A DNA stretch of 64,000 bases from Streptomyces durmitorensis (GTDB lineage: Bacteria > Actinomycetota > Actinomycetes > Streptomycetales > Streptomycetaceae): NCBI RefSeq assembly GCF_023498005.1, contig NZ_CP097289.1, positions 3,286,001 through 3,350,000 of the forward strand. Direction: 5' to 3'. Made by a program: the position numbers and the translations under genes. This document shows, in pieces, positions 2,373 to 13,123 of this stretch. The notes beneath the pieces were generated by a model. It worked only from the letters and a program-made list of their open reading frames with translations. It had not been told where the DNA came from and did no database searches. Numbering within the stretch: the stretch's first letter is position 1; each line of letters begins with the position of its first letter.

Positions 2373-3239
2373 CTACCGCTCGACGCCCCGCCCTCCGCCC
2401 AGCTTCTCCTCGATCCAGGCGACACCGAAGCTCGCCACGTCCCCGGCCTCGAAGAGATGACTCCTGGCCGCCCCGACCACCCCTTCGACGCCGATCCCGG
2501 CCGCGAGCATGTCCCGCGCGATGACCTCGAAGGGCCATAGTCCTTCCGGCACCACGGAGGAGTAGTCGAAGGCGCCGTCCGACGAGTCGATGTCGCGGAA
2601 GCGCCGCCAGACCCGCTTCCCCTCCTCGATGATCGGCTGCTCGTACTCTACGAACCGCTTGCCGGGCGCATCGGCGAGCGCCTCCGCGTGGTGCAGCAGC
2701 GTGAGGGAGTCCAGCGGAGCCCCCAGCAGGAGGACCCGCCCACCCATGGCGACCAGGTGCCCCAGCGGGCTGTCGGGGCCGTGCGGATCGTCCCAGGGGT
2801 GGTCGGCCATCAGCGCGTCCGCGGCCGGGCCGAGCGCCGCGAAGCCGGCATCGGGGTGACGGCTGCGTACGGCACCCGGCCAGCGGCGAAGGGCCTCGGG
2901 GAGCCGACCGTAGTTGTGGTCGGCCTCGCTGAGAACGGGGTCGTACGCGGGGTGTTCCGCACGCACGGCGTCCTGCCAGGCCTGCGGCCAGGCGGTGAGG
3001 TCGTAGGGCGGGGCGTCGTTCCAGCCGCAGGTGACCATGAGGGTGCCGCGCTCGCCGACGACGTCGCGCAGGGCGCCGATGACGGTCGGCGGACCGCCCG
3101 CCACGTACCCGATCGCCGACATCTCGGTATGGAACATCACGGTGTCCCCGGCACGCAGGCCGAGGTCCACAAGCTCACGCCTGAGCCGACCACGGGTGAC
3201 AGGACCGCCGGAACGCTTGAGCAGGGCCATTTCGTCCAT
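2373..3239 (-). CDS. AAC(3)-family aminoglycoside N-acetyltransferase
   Basis: The 288-residue product has the AAC(3) N-terminus (LRAGDTVMFHTEMSAIGYVAGGP) and the conserved middle (HPDAGFAALGPAADAL, then DSPLGHLVAMGGRVLLLGAPLDSLTLLHHAE). This family transfers acetyl from acetyl-CoA to the 3-amino group of 2-deoxystreptamine aminoglycosides. Streptomyces chromosomes carry several such genes, some for self-protection and some of unknown role, so clinical-type resistance cannot be assumed. The length is normal. The ATG at 3239 has no Shine-Dalgarno sequence; TAGGTT lies about 6 nt upstream on this strand, which would fit a leaderless transcript (inference). No antibiotic biosynthesis gene is visible nearby. 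Confidence 0.88.
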   Translation of the reverse strand: MDEMALLKRSGGPVTRGRLRRELVDLGLRAGDTVMFHTEMSAIGYVAGGPPTVIGALRDVVGERGTLMVTCGWNDAPPYDLTAWPQAWQDAVRAEHPAYDPVLSEADHNYGRLPEALRRWPGAVRSRHPDAGFAALGPAADALMADHPWDDPHGPDSPLGHLVAMGGRVLLLGAPLDSLTLLHHAEALADAPGKRFVEYEQPIIEEGKRVWRRFRDIDSSDGAFDYSSVVPEGLWPFEVIARDMLAAGIGVEGVVGAARSHLFEAGDVASFGVAWIEEKLGGGRGVER

Positions 3240-3314: not shown

Positions 3315-5576
3315 GTGCACGGGCGGTTGCTGAACGATCGGTACGAGTTGCTGGCGCCGATCGGCTCCGGGGGCATGGGGCAGGTCTGGCGGGCCCGTGA
3401 CCGGAGCCTGGGCCGGGAGGTGGCGGTCAAGCTGCTCACGGCGACGGGCTCGGCGGGCACGGCGGGATCAGCGGGATCAACGGGATCAACGGGTGGGGAC
3501 GATCAGGACCAACTCCTGGCCAGGTTCCGGCAGGAGGCCCGCGCGGCGGCCTCGCTGGACAGCCCGTACATCGTCGCCGTCCACGACCACGGCACGGACG
3601 ACGGCACCCCGTACCTGGTGATGGCCCTGGTGCAGGGGCGCTCGCTCGACCAGGTGCTGCGCGGGAGCGTCCGCGTACCGGTGGCGGACGCGCTGCGCTG
3701 GGCGGCGGACATCTGCCGCGCCCTGGACGCGGCGCACTCGGCGGGCGTCGTGCACCGCGACATCAAACCCGGCAACGTGATGATCGCGCAGGACGGCACC
3801 GCCAAGGTCGTCGACTTCGGCATCGCGACGTTCATGGAGCGCGCCGCGGGAGACGCCCGCCTCACGCAGACCGGGCAACTGCCGTTCGGCAGCGTGCCGT
3901 ACCTGGCGCCGGAACGGTTCCGCCAGGAGGCGGGCGACGGACGTACCGACCTGTACGCGCTCGGCTGCGTCCTCTACGAACTCCTCGTCGGCAGACCGCC
4001 GTTCACCGGATCGGCGGCCGGCGTCATGTACAACCACGTCAACGACGCACCGCTGAGGCCCTCGCGGGCACGGCCCGAGGTGACGCCTCCGGTGGAGCGC
4101 CTCGTACTCGACCTCCTGGCCAAGTCCCCCGCAGACCGGCCCGCGGACGCGGCGAAGGTGCTGGAGCGGATCCTGGCGGCGGGGGCAGCAGGGGCGGAGG
4201 AGGCGGAGGGGGCAAAGGCTGGTGCCGCGTACGGCACTCCGACGCCGGACGTACAGGACTCCGTCCCCGCGGCGGACTCCCTGGTCGTCGAGGACGCCCG
4301 CCCCCAGTCATCCCACTCGCCGGGTGTCCGCAAGGAACCCACGCCCCTGGACGCGCCGGGCCGCCAACGGCGCTCACGCAAGCGCGTATTGATGACCACG
4401 GCCCTCGTCCTGGCGGCGGTCGGCATCCCGGCGGTCCTGGGCATACGTTCTCTCACCGCACCCGACACCGAGTCCGCGTCGGACGCCAAGGACACTCCGG
4501 CCGCCGTTTACACGATCGGTGTCGCACACAGCTACACCCACGTCGGCGCCGAACGCTCGACCGGCGCCGGGGACACGTACGAGAAGTCGGAGTTCAAGCA
4601 GTTCACGACGCAGCAGAAGCGCACCGTCGAGTCCGCGTTCGCCGAGACGCTCGGCGCGAAAGGCGGCAGCCGCTTCCGCGTCGTCCCCGTGTCCGCCAAT
4701 CCGGACACGACGTCCCGCAAGCTCCTCGCCAAGCATCCGGAGATGCTCGCCGTCATCGGTGACACCGTCGACTTCTCCTGGGTGCACGACACGGACGAGG
4801 CGTTCCTGCCGGAGATCAGCACGTGCTCCGAAGTCGCCCATGCGGCAGGGGCGTTCGCAATCCCGGCCGACGAGGCGCGGCAGGGCGAGGCGATGGCGGA
4901 CTACCTCCTGACGCGGACCAAGGCGCGCCGGGTGTTCGTGGCCGAGGACAAGATCTGGACGGACCGCGAGGACGGCATCGGCACCGCGCTGCGCAGGGCA
5001 GGCGTGACCACCAAGTCGCTGGACACGTCGCCCAACGAGATAAAGACGTCGCAGATCCCGGCATTGGTCGGCAGGGCACGGGCGGACGCGGTGGTGGTGC
5101 CCACGGGCGCGGACATCAACGTGTGGGCCAAGAAGCTGTGGGCCGACGGCTTCAAGGGACCGGTGCTGACCCAGAGCGATCCGGAGGGTGTCTGCGAGGA
5201 CTCGAAGGAGCGGTCCACGGCGGAGAGGAGGGACAAGACCGTCCCCGACGGCGTCCTGCGCGCCCGCAACTACTCCGGTGAACCCGACGAGAACCTCCCG
5301 GCGCGCGGCAACCAGGAGCTGTACGACGGCGCCCTGGCCCTTGCGACGGCGCTCAAGAAGCTCCCGGCCGAGGGCTCGGCCACCTCGGCGAGTTCGTTGC
5401 GGCACACCCTGGACCGCGAGATCCAGGGTGTCTCCGTCAACGGCGTACTCGACGAGGTCTCCTTCGAGAAGCGCCGTTCCGCTCGCGAGCGCCCGGTGTG
5501 GTTCGACCGCCGTGAGGACGGCAAGTGGACCGAAGTCGGCAAGGTGGACAAGGAGTTCGAGGCGACGCGGCAGTAG
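3315..5576 (+). CDS. Transmembrane Ser/Thr protein kinase with periplasmic-binding-protein-like sensor domain
   Basis: The 753-residue protein starts with a PknB-type kinase domain (about 10-285): Gly loop GSGGMGQVW, Lys39 in VAVKLL, catalytic HRDIKPGN (D149), DFG at 167-169 and the APE motif. A juxtamembrane linker precedes one membrane helix at about 357-377. The extracytoplasmic part (about 395-750) resembles branched-chain amino-acid/ligand-binding proteins (type 1 periplasmic binding fold), so it probably senses a small ligand and signals inward by phosphorylation. An odd Gly/Ser/Thr/Ala-rich insert at residues 44-61, between strand beta3 and helix alphaC, is encoded by near-identical 9-nt repeats. 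The GTG start follows GAAGGGGGAA. The ligand and the target proteins are unknown. Confidence 0.93.
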   Translation: MHGRLLNDRYELLAPIGSGGMGQVWRARDRSLGREVAVKLLTATGSAGTAGSAGSTGSTGGDDQDQLLARFRQEARAAASLDSPYIVAVHDHGTDDGTPYLVMALVQGRSLDQVLRGSVRVPVADALRWAADICRALDAAHSAGVVHRDIKPGNVMIAQDGTAKVVDFGIATFMERAAGDARLTQTGQLPFGSVPYLAPERFRQEAGDGRTDLYALGCVLYELLVGRPPFTGSAAGVMYNHVNDAPLRPSRARPEVTPPVERLVLDLLAKSPADRPADAAKVLERILAAGAAGAEEAEGAKAGAAYGTPTPDVQDSVPAADSLVVEDARPQSSHSPGVRKEPTPLDAPGRQRRSRKRVLMTTALVLAAVGIPAVLGIRSLTAPDTESASDAKDTPAAVYTIGVAHSYTHVGAERSTGAGDTYEKSEFKQFTTQQKRTVESAFAETLGAKGGSRFRVVPVSANPDTTSRKLLAKHPEMLAVIGDTVDFSWVHDTDEAFLPEISTCSEVAHAAGAFAIPADEARQGEAMADYLLTRTKARRVFVAEDKIWTDREDGIGTALRRAGVTTKSLDTSPNEIKTSQIPALVGRARADAVVVPTGADINVWAKKLWADGFKGPVLTQSDPEGVCEDSKERSTAERRDKTVPDGVLRARNYSGEPDENLPARGNQELYDGALALATALKKLPAEGSATSASSLRHTLDREIQGVSVNGVLDEVSFEKRRSARERPVWFDRREDGKWTEVGKVDKEFEATRQ

Positions 5577-6340: not shown

Positions 6341-6991
6341 GTGAACCGCCCTCTCCGTCTCGCGACGGTCGCCCTCACCGCGTCCGCAGCGTTGCTGCTG
6401 ACTTCCTGCGGAAGCGGCGACGAGTCCAAGGACAACGACAAGATCGCCGGGGCAGAGCAGGACGGCGCGAAGAAATCGGCTTCGCCCAGCGCATCGGACT
6501 CGGGGAGTGCGGACCGCCCGAAGATCGAGCTGCCCGCGGACCTGACGTACACCTTCGACTGGCCGAAGACGGGCAAGAAGGCCGATGACGCGATCCTGGC
6601 CGACAGTGAGCAGTCCATCAAGGCCGTCGACATGGCCATCGCCGAGCAGGACCCGGCGAACAAGGCGTACCGCTTCTACTACGAAGGGGAAGCCGCCGCT
6701 CAGACGCAGAAGTTCATCAAGGCCTACGTCGACGCCAAGGCGCGCACCACCGGCGCCTATCGGTACTACAACCCGGCCGTATCCGGCGATGGCGCCTTCG
6801 CCTCCCTCGTCTACTGCGAGGACCAGAGCAAGGCCTACGACAAGTACCTCAAGAAGGACAAGGTCAACAAGACTCCCGCGACGAAGAACAGCTACGTTCT
6901 CTACGCAGCCAAGCTGCAAAGGAACGACGCGGGCGTCTGGGTCACCACACAATTGAATTCCACTCGGGGGAGTGCCAAGTGCCAACCGTGA
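6341..6991 (+). CDS. Secreted lipoprotein of unknown function
   Basis: This 216-residue protein begins with a lipoprotein signal peptide (basic RPLR, hydrophobic core, lipobox LLTSC with Cys23), followed by a Ser/Asp/Lys-rich linker and a globular domain with several Tyr/Lys motifs (YRFYYEGEAAAQTQKFIKAY). I do not recognise the domain. The GTG start has CAGGAG about 6 nt upstream. The 3' end overlaps the next gene by 13 bp, so the two are translationally coupled. Together they sit just before the Rhs toxin gene, which suggests a role at the cell surface with that effector (inference). Confidence 0.8.
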   Translation: MNRPLRLATVALTASAALLLTSCGSGDESKDNDKIAGAEQDGAKKSASPSASDSGSADRPKIELPADLTYTFDWPKTGKKADDAILADSEQSIKAVDMAIAEQDPANKAYRFYYEGEAAAQTQKFIKAYVDAKARTTGAYRYYNPAVSGDGAFASLVYCEDQSKAYDKYLKKDKVNKTPATKNSYVLYAAKLQRNDAGVWVTTQLNSTRGSAKCQP

Positions 6992-8016
6992 AACTCCGCT
7001 TGAAAGTACTGACCGTCGCGGCCCTCGGCTGCATGTTCCTCAGCGCCGTCCCGGCGGCGGCTGACAACGAGATCGGCGGCGGCGCCCAGAATCCCGGATC
7101 TGACAGCGACGCCTCGGGCAACGCGGACGGCGACGAACTGTCCGCCACCGCATCCGGCATCGTCTACGACCGCTCCAAGAACGGCTCCGGCCCCAAGACC
7201 GGAGCCGTGACCCCCGCCACGAACTGGACCCCGCCCCCCTGCTGGTACGCACCCACGTACTCGCCGGCGGAGTTCAAGAAGTACGTCGAGCCGATCTGGC
7301 AGGCCGAATCGACCGGCCCCCAGTGGGACTTGGAGCAGAAGAAGCGGTACGTGGACGGCGAGCCCTACAAGAACTTCAACCTGGACAAGGCGGGCAAGGG
7401 CTTCTGGTGGACGTCCTTCCCCAACAAGAGCTTCCCACCCGGCTGGGACGGCTGCGACGAGCCCACCTTCTGGGTGGACAAGGGCGACCCGCCCCCGGCC
7501 GACATCCCCGAAGCGATAACTCCGGAGATGCTCTCCAAGCTCGCGTACGCCGAGATCCGCGTACCCGGCACCGAGGTGACCCTCGCCCCTGAAGGCGAGA
7601 CGAAGGTCAATCTGCCGACCTGGGCCTGGCTGGACGAGACGGAGTTCAAGCCGGTGTCGGTGACGGCGTCCGTCCCCGACATCGGCATCGAGGCGACGAC
7701 AACCGCGGAGCCGGTCTCCCTCAAGATCGACCCGGGCACGAAGGACGCGGAGACCTACCCCGCCTCCGGTGCCTGCCCCATCAAGAACGGCAAGATCGGC
7801 GAACCGTACGCCAAGGGCAAGTCCAAGCAGGACCCGCCCTGCGGCGTGAGGTACCTCCGCTCCTCGGGCGACGGCTCGTACCCGCTCAAGGCAACGGTCA
7901 CCTGGAAGATCCACTGGACCGGCACAGGAGTCAACGGCGAAAAGCCGCTACCTGACGGCGAGTTCGGCGCGGATCAGGACGTGGTGGTCGAGGAGGTCCA
8001 GTCGATCAACCGATAG
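6979..8016 (+). CDS. Secreted protein of unknown function, coupled to the lipoprotein
   Basis: The 345-residue product has a Sec signal peptide (KLRLKVLTVAALGCMFLSAVPAAA, cleavage after about residue 28). The mature protein is rich in Trp and Pro, with Cys residues spaced so that disulphides are possible (PPPCWYAP, GWDGCDEP, SGACPI, DPPCGV). A C-terminal beta-rich half ends in VTWKIHWTGTG. GTG 6979 is favoured by GGGGGAG 6 nt upstream; GTG 6988 is an alternative. It overlaps the lipoprotein gene by 13 bp and ends 149 bp before the Rhs gene. I recognise no enzymatic motif. A structural or docking role for the toxin module is only an inference. Confidence 0.78.
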   Translation: MPTVKLRLKVLTVAALGCMFLSAVPAAADNEIGGGAQNPGSDSDASGNADGDELSATASGIVYDRSKNGSGPKTGAVTPATNWTPPPCWYAPTYSPAEFKKYVEPIWQAESTGPQWDLEQKKRYVDGEPYKNFNLDKAGKGFWWTSFPNKSFPPGWDGCDEPTFWVDKGDPPPADIPEAITPEMLSKLAYAEIRVPGTEVTLAPEGETKVNLPTWAWLDETEFKPVSVTASVPDIGIEATTTAEPVSLKIDPGTKDAETYPASGACPIKNGKIGEPYAKGKSKQDPPCGVRYLRSSGDGSYPLKATVTWKIHWTGTGVNGEKPLPDGEFGADQDVVVEEVQSINR

Positions 8017-8165: not shown

Positions 8166-11100
8166 GTGGGGGGCAACCGCCCAGCAGACTGGCATGTCCT
8201 GGACCTGGACAAGGATCCGACGCCCGGCGATCCGGACCGGGTGCGGAACCTGGCGAAGAATCTGCATGACTTCGCCGACGACGTGTCGAAGGTTCTTCGT
8301 GACATCAAGGGGATGGCGGGTGAGGACGCCATCCTCACCTGGGCGGGCAAGACGGCGGAGTCCTTCACGGCGGAGTTCGAGGACGCGCCGGGCAAGCTGA
8401 GGAAGCTCAAGAAGAGCTACGAGATGGCCGGCGACGCCCTCTCCACCTACTGGCCCGAGCTGGAACGCGCCCAGGCCCTCGCCGACAAGGCCCTGGTCAA
8501 GGGCCGTGAGGCGCAGGGCGATCTGTCCTCCGCCCAGACCCGGCTGACCTCCGCCGACTCCTGGATGGACAAGGCGGGCAAGGAAGCCGACAAGTACAAG
8601 GACGACAAAGACTCCGGCAAGGACGTCCCCAAGCCGGACCCGGACAAGGTCAAGGCCGCCACCCGCAACGCCAACTCCGCCGAAAAAGCGCAGACGGCGG
8701 CCAAGTCGGACGTCTCCGCCGCGAAAAGCAACCTCGATGCCGCCAAGAAGATGGCCGAGGACGCCCGCAAGATGCGCCAGGACGCCGCCGGGACCGCGAA
8801 GAAGAAGCTGGAAGACGCTTCCGACGCGGGTATTCAGAATCGCAAGTGGTGGGAGGAGGTCGGGGACTGGGTCACCGACAACTGGGACACCATCGTCGCC
8901 GTCTGCAAGGTCGTCGTCGCCGTACTCGGCATCATCGCCATGATCATCGGTGGCCCGATCCTGGGCGCCATCGTCCTCATCGCCGCCCTCGTCGTCCTCG
9001 CCGACACCCTCCACAAATACGCCAACGGGGAAGCGGGCCTACTCGACGTCGCCTTCGCCGCCCTCGACTGCATCCCCGGCATGAAGGCCCTCACCAGCCT
9101 CCGCGGCCTCGCCAAGGGCATGAAGGGCCTCAAGGCCGGGCTCAAGGGCCTCGGCAAGGGCGGGCTACGGCGCGGCGCGGACGACGCCCTTGCCAAGAGC
9201 AAGCCGGCCAAGGGCCGCTGCAAGAACGGCGACCCCATCGACATGGTCTCCGGCGAAATGCTCATGGAGCAGACCGACGTCGAGTTGCCTGGGCTGCTTC
9301 CGCTGATCCTGCGGCGTACTCATCTGTCCACCTACAGGTGGGGCCAGTGGTACGGGGACTCCTGGGCGTCCACCCTCGACGAGCGGCTGGAAATCGACAG
9401 CGCGGGCGTGTTGTTCGCCTCCGAGGACGGCATGATCCTCACTTATCCGGTGCCGCGACCCGGCACGCCGATTCTGCCCGTCGAAGGGCCACTGTGGCCA
9501 CTGAACTGGGACGGCGATGCAAGCGGGGAGATACGGATCAGCGACTCTGTCACCGGGCGTACCCGCCACTTCATGCCCCTGCCGGGCATTCCACCGACCG
9601 ACGGTCCCGCCGTCCTGCCGCTCGCTGCGATCAGTGACCGCAACGGCCACCGGGTGACATTCGAGCGCGATGCGTCCGGCGCGCCCACGGCAGTGCGGCA
9701 CTCCGGCGGATACCACCTGCGCGTCGAAACCGGCGGCGACCGCATCACAGGTCTGCGGCTGCACACCCCTGGGCCTGAGGACACCAGCACCGAACTGGTC
9801 CGCTATCAGTACAACACCGAAGGTCACCTCGCCGAGATCTACAACTCGAGCGAAACGCCGTACCAGCTGAACTACGACGACCGTGCCCGAATCACCTCCT
9901 GGACCGACCGCAACAGCTCCTGGTACCGATTCACCTACGACGACCAGGACCGCTGCATACAGGGCGAAGGCGCTGACGGCTTCCTCGACTGCACCATCAA
10001 CTACGACACTGATAACCGCACCACCCTCTACACGGACTCGCTCGGCCACACCACCCGGTACGAGTACAGCGAACGGCTGCAACTCACTGCCGAGACCGAC
10101 CCGCTGGAGAACACCACGCGCACGGCGTGGAACAGCCGTGACCAGCTCCTGTCGTGGACCGACCCGCTCGGGCACACCACCCGGTACGCATACGACGAGG
10201 CCGGGAACCTGACCAAGGTCACGCAGCCTGACGGCAATGCCGCCACTGCGGTCTTCAACGAACTGCACCAGCCGCTGACCATCACCGATCACGACGGCCT
10301 GGTCTGGCACCACTCCTATGACGAGCGCGGCAACCGGCTGACGGTGACCGACCCGGTGGGCGCCGAGACACACTTCACGTACGACGAGGCGGGGCGTCCG
10401 GTCTCCGTCACCGATCCCCTGGGCAGGGTCCAACGCGCTGTGTGTGATTCCGCCGGGCTTACGGTGGCGATCACCGATCCGCTTGGACAGACAACCGAGG
10501 CCGAACGCGACGCCTTCGGCCGGATCTGCACCGTCACCGATCCTTCCGGCGCTGTCACCCGCCTGACATGGACGGTCGAGGGTCTCATCGCGCGACGCGA
10601 ATTGGCGAATGGCTCGGTCGAGTCCTGGGAGTGGGACGGCGAGGGCAACATCCTCAAGTACGTCGATCCAGCCGGTCACACCACGCAACATGCCTACACG
10701 CACTTCGCTTTGCCGACGAGCCGGCAAGACCCCGACGGCACGGTCCACACCTTCACGTATGACACCGAGCTACAGCTGACTTCCGTGGTCAACCCGCAGC
10801 AGCTTTCCTGGCGTTACGAATTCGATGCGGCTGGGCGTCTCGTTGCCGAGAACGATTTCAACGGGCGTTCCCTCACCTACACACACGACGCATCGGGTCG
10901 GCTCACTTCACGTACAAATGGTGCGGGCGAGTTCATCCGCTACGAGCGGGACGTCTTCGGCCAGACCCTGGTGGCACAGGCGGACGACGACACGGTCACC
11001 TCATACAGTTACGACGCCTACGGCCGTCTGACCCGTGCCACCAATCGGGATGCATCGGTCGAGCTGACCTACGACGCACAGGGCCAGGTCGTGCGCGAGA

Positions 11101-12653
11101 GCGTGAACGGTGAGGTGATGTCGTACACCTACGACCTTGCCGGACGGCGGACGACTCGCAGCACACCGTCCGGAAAAGTCTCCCGGTGGGAGTACGACGC
11201 GGCCGACCGGCCGACGGTGCTTGTGCTGGGCCGTCACCGGATGGAGTTCCAGCACAACTCCGCCGGATACGAGACGAGTCGCCACTACGGTGAAGGGGTC
11301 ACACTCGCTCAGAGCTGGGATGCCGTCGGCCGGCTTGCCGACCAGACGATCAGCACGCGCTCCGACGCGACCGAGCGTGTCCTGCGACGCCGCACATACG
11401 CCTACAGGGCCGACGCACAGCTCAAGGAGATCCGCGGGTCGGATGCGAGCAGTCGGCGTTTCGACCTCGACGCAGTCGGCCGGGTCACAGGTGTGTACAG
11501 CGGCGACTGGACCGAGCGATACGCGTATGACAGCGCGGGCAATCTCAGCCACGCCGAAGTGACCCCCGCGGCAGCCATGCGCAGCAACTCCGACACCACG
11601 GCCGCGGAGAGTACCGGCTCCTGGGAGGCCACCGGGACTCTCATGCATCGGTCCGGACGTGTCCGTCACCAGCACGACGTCCAGGGACGGCTCGTTCGCC
11701 GCAGCCGCCGCCTCCTCAACGGGCAGCGGCAGGTGTGGCGATACACCTGGGATGCCGAGGACCGGCTCATCGGTGTGACGACTCCAGGCGGAGCGGCCTG
11801 GCGATATCTGTACGACCCCTTGGGACGTCGCATCGCCAAGCATCTATTGGATGCCGACGGGATGGTCATGGAGCGGACCGAATTCGCTTGGGACGGCAGC
11901 ATTCTGGCGGAGCGGACCGCCACCGATGGCACGGTGACGACCTGGGACTACGAGCCGGACTCTCACCGTCCCCTGGTCCAGACCGACCACTCCCAAGCCG
12001 ACTACGACGCGCGGTTCCACGCCATCGTCACCGATCTGGTGGGCACGCCCACAGAACTCGTCACTGCTGATGGCAATATCGCATGGCAGGCGCGCACCAC
12101 GCTCTGGGGCGTGGAAATTCCGCACGAGGGCACGACGGACGTGGAGTGCCCACTGCGCTTCCCGGGTCAATACCACGACTCGGAATCCGGGCTTAATTAC
12201 AACTATGCCCGGCATTACGATCCGGAAGCTGCCCGGTATGTATCAGCTGATCCGCTCGGCCTGGAACCAGCGCCCAATCACCATGCCTACGTACCGAATC
12301 CGCTGACCTGGCAGGACCCGCTAGGCCTTGCCCGCCGGGGTCCGAAGGACCCGATCAACCTGAGCGACGGGTACCGGGGGCGGATGGACACCTTTGACAT
12401 CGGACATGCCACGGACTTCGAGATGCACGTATACGACAAGAACGGCCGCGAGGTCGGCCTCTACGGAAGTAACGGGTGGTTCGACAAGCACCGCTTGGAT
12501 TCCAATGTAGAAGTGCCGCAGAGCGTGGAGAACCGGCTCAAGGGTGAGGCGGTAAAGTTCATGCGCAGAACCGGGCGCATTGGTCCTCGTGGTACTGAAG
12601 ACGTCTCCGGCGACAAATGGAAGCGGCCCCGCCTGAAGGGATCCTGTGGATGA
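8166..12653 (+). CDS. WXG-type Rhs/YD-repeat polymorphic toxin
   Basis: This is a 1495-residue modular protein. Residues 1-120 are helical with a WAG motif at 59-61, like WXG100-type N-termini, and there is no Sec signal. A Lys/Asp/Ala-rich coiled stretch follows (about 120-225), then two hydrophobic helices (about 238-280). CKNGDPIDMVSGEM, near residue 355, starts the DUF6531/Rhs shell. Some 20 YD repeats (YDxxGR) then run to the Rhs core end RYVSADPLGLEP. After DPLGLA at about 1389, a 106-residue tip domain forms the presumed toxin, with FDIGHATDFEMHVYD and basic residues; I do not recognise its activity. Tip DNA (12333-12653) is visibly less GC-rich than the rest. The immunity gene overlaps the stop codon. 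Export, probably through the type VII system, is inferred. Confidence 0.9.
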   Translation: MGGNRPADWHVLDLDKDPTPGDPDRVRNLAKNLHDFADDVSKVLRDIKGMAGEDAILTWAGKTAESFTAEFEDAPGKLRKLKKSYEMAGDALSTYWPELERAQALADKALVKGREAQGDLSSAQTRLTSADSWMDKAGKEADKYKDDKDSGKDVPKPDPDKVKAATRNANSAEKAQTAAKSDVSAAKSNLDAAKKMAEDARKMRQDAAGTAKKKLEDASDAGIQNRKWWEEVGDWVTDNWDTIVAVCKVVVAVLGIIAMIIGGPILGAIVLIAALVVLADTLHKYANGEAGLLDVAFAALDCIPGMKALTSLRGLAKGMKGLKAGLKGLGKGGLRRGADDALAKSKPAKGRCKNGDPIDMVSGEMLMEQTDVELPGLLPLILRRTHLSTYRWGQWYGDSWASTLDERLEIDSAGVLFASEDGMILTYPVPRPGTPILPVEGPLWPLNWDGDASGEIRISDSVTGRTRHFMPLPGIPPTDGPAVLPLAAISDRNGHRVTFERDASGAPTAVRHSGGYHLRVETGGDRITGLRLHTPGPEDTSTELVRYQYNTEGHLAEIYNSSETPYQLNYDDRARITSWTDRNSSWYRFTYDDQDRCIQGEGADGFLDCTINYDTDNRTTLYTDSLGHTTRYEYSERLQLTAETDPLENTTRTAWNSRDQLLSWTDPLGHTTRYAYDEAGNLTKVTQPDGNAATAVFNELHQPLTITDHDGLVWHHSYDERGNRLTVTDPVGAETHFTYDEAGRPVSVTDPLGRVQRAVCDSAGLTVAITDPLGQTTEAERDAFGRICTVTDPSGAVTRLTWTVEGLIARRELANGSVESWEWDGEGNILKYVDPAGHTTQHAYTHFALPTSRQDPDGTVHTFTYDTELQLTSVVNPQQLSWRYEFDAAGRLVAENDFNGRSLTYTHDASGRLTSRTNGAGEFIRYERDVFGQTLVAQADDDTVTSYSYDAYGRLTRATNRDASVELTYDAQGQVVRESVNGEVMSYTYDLAGRRTTRSTPSGKVSRWEYDAADRPTVLVLGRHRMEFQHNSAGYETSRHYGEGVTLAQSWDAVGRLADQTISTRSDATERVLRRRTYAYRADAQLKEIRGSDASSRRFDLDAVGRVTGVYSGDWTERYAYDSAGNLSHAEVTPAAAMRSNSDTTAAESTGSWEATGTLMHRSGRVRHQHDVQGRLVRRSRRLLNGQRQVWRYTWDAEDRLIGVTTPGGAAWRYLYDPLGRRIAKHLLDADGMVMERTEFAWDGSILAERTATDGTVTTWDYEPDSHRPLVQTDHSQADYDARFHAIVTDLVGTPTELVTADGNIAWQARTTLWGVEIPHEGTTDVECPLRFPGQYHDSESGLNYNYARHYDPEAARYVSADPLGLEPAPNHHAYVPNPLTWQDPLGLARRGPKDPINLSDGYRGRMDTFDIGHATDFEMHVYDKNGREVGLYGSNGWFDKHRLDSNVEVPQSVENRLKGEAVKFMRRTGRIGPRGTEDVSGDKWKRPRLKGSCG

Positions 12654-13123
12654 GGTACGTGAAGGTCGACTGGGACCTCGAGCTACGCGGTTTCCGGACT
12701 GACGCACGCGACTACCTGGCGGTCCTGCCGGAGCTGAAGGACGCACTTCCGTCAGGAGCAATGGCCTTCGCGTCCGACGCCGGACATTACGACTACGCAA
12801 GCGAACGGTGCGTCAAAGACCTGGAGCTCGCGGAGATCTCCCTGCCCACGACCACCGCGGGCCGGTCCGGCACAGCATCCCTCGACTTCCGGCCGAACCA
12901 GTGGAAGCACTCCGCCGGTCTGCGCATCGAGTATGCCGACGTCTCGCACTTCTCGGTCGACTATGAGTCGTCGATCGACTGGACGGCAGCGATCACGGTA
13001 CTGCTCGATGAAGTTCTGCCACACGAGGGTGGCATCGTGCATGAGATCGAACTGACCGACGCAACGATCACGGTGCACTGTGCGGACCTGACCGCGACCT
13101 GGGCGGAAATCCAGGGCACATGA
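12650..13123 (+). CDS. Presumed immunity protein for the Rhs toxin
   Basis: The ATG at 12650 overlaps the TGA of the toxin gene (ATGA), with GAAGGG 9 nt upstream, giving a 157-residue soluble protein with no signal peptide or membrane segment. It has aromatic and acidic beta-strand-like segments (VKVDWDLELRG, FSVDYESSIDWTAAITVLLDE, ITVHCADLTATWAEI). I do not recognise the family. A small gene coupled to the 3' end of an Rhs toxin gene is the standard position of the cognate immunity gene, so the function is inferred from position only. Confidence 0.75.
   Translation: MRYVKVDWDLELRGFRTDARDYLAVLPELKDALPSGAMAFASDAGHYDYASERCVKDLELAEISLPTTTAGRSGTASLDFRPNQWKHSAGLRIEYADVSHFSVDYESSIDWTAAITVLLDEVLPHEGGIVHEIELTDATITVHCADLTATWAEIQGT

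Follow-up and report, generated by a model that had tools for sequence, protein, structure and literature searches.

Closest described systems and the locus under study

Among described systems, Rhs1 of P. laumondii, an effector linked to a type VI secretion system (T6SS), is one of the closest to the protein considered here. According to PMC8636562, its Rhs shell is closed by two DPLGL motifs spaced by 17 residues, with an Ala and then the toxin behind them, and cleavage occurs after the second DPLGL, ahead of this Ala. For the product of the gene lying downstream of the toxin, two other systems serve as references. The first is the Bacillus pair PT7(Bc)/PIM7(Bc) (PDB 8owu; Nachmias et al.), in which PT7 is a DNase toxin, probably secreted by a type VII secretion system (T7SS) as stated in PMC9990079. 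The second is Imm50 (PF15594), presented in PMC3482391 as a mostly-beta immunity protein of polymorphic toxins. The present analysis concerns a stretch of 64,000 nucleotides of Streptomyces durmitorensis (contig NZ_CP097289.1, positions 3,286,001 to 3,350,000), hereafter the window, which carries an rhs gene with a variable C-terminal tip and an overlapping partner gene. The tip is proposed, with a probability of roughly 0.55, to be a nuclease toxin, and the product of the overlapping gene its blocking antidote. Whereas polymorphic toxins are an already known kind of system, this tip/partner family has no name in the libraries searched and the question of its delivery is unexpected.

The features of the pair, with lengths in amino acids (aa) and the evidence in brackets, are as follows.

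8166..12653, + strand: Rhs polymorphic toxin, 1495 aa, GTG start (list of open reading frames (ORFs), Pfam, NCBIfam)
8226..8825, + strand: helical N-terminal T7SS_signal / WXG-like domain, residues 21-220 (PF21725, PF06013)
8892..9014, + strand: hydrophobic stretch, about residues 243-283, with two predicted membrane helices (hydropathy)
9228..9446, + strand: DUF6531, residues 355-427 (Pfam; starts with DPIDMVSGE)
9447..12104, + strand: YD/RHS repeat shell (RHS_repeat and YD_repeat_2x matches)
12105..12329, + strand: Rhs core end, residues 1314-1388 (NCBIfam; DPLGL at 12249-12263 and 12315-12329)
12330..12650, + strand: variable tip, residues 1389-1495, predicted toxin domain (25-tip alignment, AlphaFold2 (AF2) model)
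12650..13123, + strand: predicted immunity protein, 157 aa, isoelectric point (pI) 4.5 (ORF, position, model fold)

The order of domains given by the first-pass annotation, i.e. a WAG helical domain, a hydrophobic pair, DUF6531, repeats, core end and tip, was recovered in full at 8166-12653. In Pfam, PF21725 (T7SS_signal) covers residues 21-220 with 42.7 bits for a cut-off of 27 (E 7.8e-11), and the match to PF06013 (WXG100) at residues 22-93 stays below its cut-off (22.7 bits for 27.3, E 1.2e-4). The WAG motif lies at residue 59 and DPIDMVSGE at residue 356. RHS_repeat is matched by 18 stretches of the protein and the RHS family by residues 1287-1315, while NCBIfam places YD_repeat_2x on 16 stretches and Rhs_assc_core at 1314-1388. 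Such an assembly of delivery domain, repeat shell, core end and variable tip agrees with the Rhs-type polymorphic toxins, a reading that is well supported overall.

As in P. laumondii Rhs1, DPLGL occurs twice at the core end, at residues 1362 and 1384, also 17 residues apart. By analogy with the cleavage site of Rhs1, aspartyl autocleavage is predicted after Leu1388, releasing a tip that would start at Ala1389 and thus count 107 residues; on this prediction, the tip would be one residue longer than the 106 of the first-pass annotation. DPIDMVSGE resembles PVSMVTGE and PVYVASGE, which PMC8636562 lists as N-terminal autocleavage motifs of other Rhs proteins. Rhs1 has a similar DP....GE motif towards its N-terminus. 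The N-terminus of Rhs1 is a PAAR domain, whereas that of the Streptomyces protein is WXG/T7SS-signal-like, and the toxin tips of the two proteins differ. The fraction of guanine plus cytosine, a comparison suggested in the first-pass annotation, is 0.668 for the N-terminus, 0.653 for the core and 0.604 for the tip, which falls below both the core and the whole window (0.695).

A mobile tip exchanged between carriers

Twenty-five tips align across about 100 residues, 16 of the columns being invariant, and the tip family is thus beyond chance. Relatives occur at 16 loci in a search of genome contigs, including those of Amycolatopsis, Actinoplanes, Embleya, Actinocrinis and Catenulispora. With the source genome counted, the tip is present in 5 of 61 genomes and in 18 of 392 Streptomyces genomes (14 near-full, the others fragments); in a phylum-wide sample of 396 genomes it was found in one, the source genome itself. 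The near-full tip loci number 27 (the window, L008-L022, L026, L027 and L029-L037), loci L002-L004, L025 and L028 being duplicates of L013, L021, L022, L016 and L015.

The carriers of the tip are Rhs proteins, PT-HINT proteins (L010, L013, P0064, P0065), an ALF-repeat protein (L018) and one protein of no assigned type (L015). Conversely, three Rhs paralogues of the same genome, with N-termini 95-96% identical, and four Rhs proteins from relatives bear different tips followed by different downstream genes. The alignment with these seven proteins ends at residue 1388-1389 in four, whereas the other three extend to 1396, 1404 and 1471, and the four endings at 1388-1389 led to rejecting the tip as a piece of the conserved Rhs core. 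Judged from these alignments, the tip is a mobile domain exchanged between carriers. The exchange that the first-pass annotation had anticipated is thereby recovered on both sides, the tip being shared by several carriers and related Rhs proteins bearing others; as for the invariant tip devoid of a partner, which the same annotation regarded as an argument against a toxin, the tip is not of that kind.

Some of these loci display features of their own. The three paralogues of the source genome (L042-L044) are 95-96% identical to the Rhs protein of the window over the first 330-345 residues, but no more than about 56-58% when the entire aligned carrier is counted, a difference suggesting that their N-terminal region has been homogenised by gene conversion. 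An unusual carrier is encoded in L015 (5327-7300): its start is rich in proline, a single hydrophobic stretch is recognised by eye, and it has no Pfam domain. In L002, on the same contig as L013, the immunity gene is followed downstream by a frame (about 2459-3046) that duplicates the HINT end of the carrier lying upstream, before passing into another C-terminal domain in the manner of an orphan tip cassette.

The partner gene

The coupling of the downstream gene proposed in the first-pass annotation is verified, since its ATG at 12650 overlaps the TGA of rhs at 12651-12653 (ATGA). The immunity position recurs in 26 of the 27 near-full tip loci, where a partner homologue in a single open frame starts within 15 bases of the point at which the tip match ends; L037 is the exception, with a homologue broken into three frames. 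Five loci (L023, L038-L041) carry tips that are truncated or interrupted, and each retains a single-frame partner match over at least 140 of the 154 model positions, that of L040 lacking the first eight.

A partner-based search gave matches in 51 of 295 Streptomyces genomes, the matches other than near-full being fragments, and antidotes outnumber toxins (near-full partners in 37 of the 295 genomes vs near-full tips in 14 of 392). Thirty partner loci were fetched of the 58 matches listed: eight have a full tip, four a tip remnant and 18 no tip detected within the fetched bases, which for L095 include just 556 bases upstream of the partner. These 18 orphan immunity homologues are L078, L082, L084, L086, L088, L089, L091, L093 and L095-L104. 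On these counts, orphan immunity genes are commoner than the toxin. This lopsided decay, in which the partner is kept and the tip lost, is what a toxin with its antidote predicts. Carrier exchange, a linked partner and decayed tips beside intact partners together support the toxin-tip/immunity reading of the first-pass annotation, and the partner is likely the immunity protein of the tip.

A family without a name

In the protein database, the partner family amounts to 56 proteins, the source's own counted, none with a precomputed Pfam domain, and its named members are all annotated as hypothetical or uncharacterised. Imm50 resembles the partner as a mostly-beta immunity protein of polymorphic toxins. 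It was rejected as an identity for the partner: PF15594 is not among the nine families matched by 33 partner members, and when its profile was compared with 18 Imm50 sequences of Streptomyces, the probability was 1%.

The tip of the window has no family match in Pfam, NCBIfam or PADLOC. Scanned singly against Pfam, NCBIfam and PHROGs, the 25 tips gave only single-member matches (E at least 0.02), none to a toxin family; Ntox24 was rejected because no tip member matched it. A fold search with the tip model returned no convincing match, and a literature search brought up no title about the tip or about T7SS-less Rhs proteins in Streptomyces. The earlier statement that the tip matches no toxin family is thus borne out, with no strong match in these four libraries. 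As far as the profile libraries searched go, tip and partner are a family without a name, which adds to the known toxin-immunity families 25 aligned tips and a candidate active site.

Predicted fold, candidate active site and proposed function

The AF2 model of the tip (predicted local distance difference test (pLDDT) 85.1, predicted template modelling score (pTM) 0.79) contains three strands in one sheet (15-23, 26-34 and 40-45, residue 1 being residue 1390 of the Rhs protein), a helix (63-80) and a conserved, confidently placed C-terminal loop. Ten polar residues are invariant in the 25 tips (D19, D28, E30, H32, S46, K52, H53, R78, R82 and D94), and R17 (23/25) and E40 (24/25) are nearly so. 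Two groups of them form the candidate active site.

12414..12428, + strand: invariant D-x-E-x-H of strand 2, residues 1417-1421, candidate active site (25/25 tips)
12486..12491, + strand: invariant Lys-His, residues 1441-1442, candidate active site (25/25 tips)

When residues are placed from DSSP strand limits rather than from coordinates, a hairpin with a two-residue turn at 24-25 would bring R17, D19 and F21 opposite H32, E30 and D28 on the same side, leaving the mostly hydrophobic positions 18, 29, 31 and 33 on the other.

The tips are mostly basic (mean pI 8.7, range 5.5-9.8; mean net charge +2.8) and the partners acidic (mean pI 4.9, range 4.5-5.9; mean net charge -11.5). The partner model (pLDDT 90.1) strongly matches chains D/E of 8owu, the PT7-PIM7 complex, from partner residue 37 onwards, the Streptomyces partner having an N-terminal extension. 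PT7/PIM7 comes from Bacillus, whereas the present pair is actinobacterial, and has no detectable sequence relation to the tip or the partner. The partner also resembles 5v77, an uncharacterised protein of Neisseria gonorrhoeae whose entry title names no function, at 14% identity.

The Rhs architecture, the DPLGL motifs, the tip exchange and the linkage and wider retention of the partner gene are read from the sequences themselves. The first-pass annotation considered that the target could be new; the modelled fold of the partner and the pattern of charges suggest nucleic acid, which is a target of a known kind. In the proposed mechanism, the Rhs shell would enclose the tip and cleave itself after the DPLGL ending at residue 1388, thereby freeing about 107 residues inside the target cell. 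The tip, with its three-stranded sheet, invariant D-x-E-x-H strand, K-H pair and two invariant Arg, would then cut nucleic acid, and the analogy with PT7 makes DNA the most likely substrate. The producer and its kin would be shielded by the acidic partner, which would attach to the tip and mask its active site. The confidence in this proposal is lowered because the matched chains D/E are not assigned to PT7 or PIM7. The fold-level link of the partner with a Bacillus DNase toxin-immunity complex makes the target directly testable.

The best-placed rival, held with less confidence, is a true toxin-immunity pair in which the tip is not a nuclease but, say, an enzyme that modifies nucleotides, NAD or proteins. 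It must accommodate a partner fold that is that of a chain in a DNase toxin-immunity complex, strongly acidic partners facing mostly basic tips, and invariant acidic, His, Lys and Arg residues that suit phosphodiester cleavage. A divergent toxin of the PT7 family, with PIM7 as the homologous antidote, is a more remote prospect. The match of the partner model to the 8owu fold favours it, as does the probable T7SS secretion of PT7 itself (PMC9990079). Neither the tip profile nor the best 50 fold matches listed for the tip model include an 8owu chain, which speaks against it but is not decisive, the PT7 sequence itself not having been compared. It is highly improbable that the Rhs protein is no weapon and serves structure or adhesion instead, its C-terminal domain being incidental and the neighbouring gene unrelated, tip and partner travelling together over carriers and genera and partners outlasting tips.

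Delivery and an apparently missing T7SS

EccB is part of all five mycobacterial ESX systems according to PMC11217815, a source that also ties Rhs toxins to several T7SS types. EccB is present in 52 of 61 Streptomyces genomes and was not found in the source genome (G000, 100% complete by tool estimate), in which no genome-wide search for EccC was made. TIGR03920, the model for EccD, gave no match but had no positive control, and this result carries no weight here.

In the Streptomyces genome G013, a T7SS block of about 29 kb (C1:6300547-6329623) stands between conserved flanks. These we take to be an SCO5716-like gene and rpsO-pnp, these names, like ribF and MycP, being tentative. In the source genome, these flanks are separated by about 2 kb (C1:2898149-2900151), with no match to the G013 block over the filters used (more than 120 bits in one comparison, more than 110 bits with 55% identity in the other). 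Delivery by an ordinary T7SS is therefore doubtful, with EccB not found and the T7SS block missing at its usual site. The WXG label of the first-pass annotation holds for the T7SS-signal/WXG-like domain, but is doubtful as a sign of T7SS delivery.

That the Rhs protein is an ordinary actinobacterial T7SS (ESX) substrate is accordingly judged unlikely. In its favour stand the PF21725 match above cut-off, the WXG100-like stretch, the link of Rhs toxins to T7SS types and the occurrence of the tip family in EccB-bearing genomes; against it stand the EccB result and the unmatched block between the flanks. Instead, the machinery may be the T7SSd found in other Actinomycetota, or another variant such as a divergent T7SS that uses a different EccC ATPase.

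The 61 genomes scored for EccB were taken as a subset of the 199 searched for the Rhs N-terminus and for the 345-aa family described below. This Rhs N-terminus occurs in 8 of 9 EccB-less genomes vs 3 of 52 EccB-positive ones (Fisher p 5e-7, or p 4e-6 with 5 of 52 when the weak matches of G019 and G083 are counted), and the 345-aa family in 9 of 9 vs 6 of 52 (p about 3e-7), all p values being uncorrected for kinship. A single lineage having lost its T7SS once may account for the association with Rhs. A simple EccB-less rule is countered by G069, which has both the tip and EccB, and by G033, which has a tip remnant and EccB. WXG-type Rhs proteins in EccB-less genomes make testable how such proteins exit Streptomyces.

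Upstream neighbours

Two genes precede rhs.

6341..6991, + strand: small gene for a lipoprotein-like product of 216 aa with an LLTSC lipobox (by eye), ahead of the 345-aa gene (ORF)
6979..8016, + strand: 345-aa protein, signal-peptide-like start (by eye), candidate Rhs companion (ORF)

Neither protein has a Pfam or NCBIfam family above cut-off. The 345-aa family has nine matches in the source genome and occurs in 51 of 199 Streptomyces genomes (E 1e-20). In all 17 cases within 5 kb of an Rhs gene, the homologue lies on the Rhs N-terminal side; the two genes share a strand in six of these cases and lie on opposite strands in 11, so that no operon is claimed in general. This count compares the top 45 Rhs rows with a selection of 345-aa rows, which makes 17 of 45 a lower bound. 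Given its place upstream of rhs in the window and the N-terminal location of all 17 nearby homologues, the 345-aa protein is the main candidate delivery partner of the Rhs protein. The full combination of an unnamed nuclease fold and a PIM7-type antidote on a WXG-type Rhs protein, with a non-ESX exit using the 345-aa protein and the lipoprotein, is a speculative composite, rather unlikely to hold in every part. Further upstream, at 3315-5576, a protein kinase is encoded whose C-terminal stretch is receptor-like (ANF_receptor, below cut-off).
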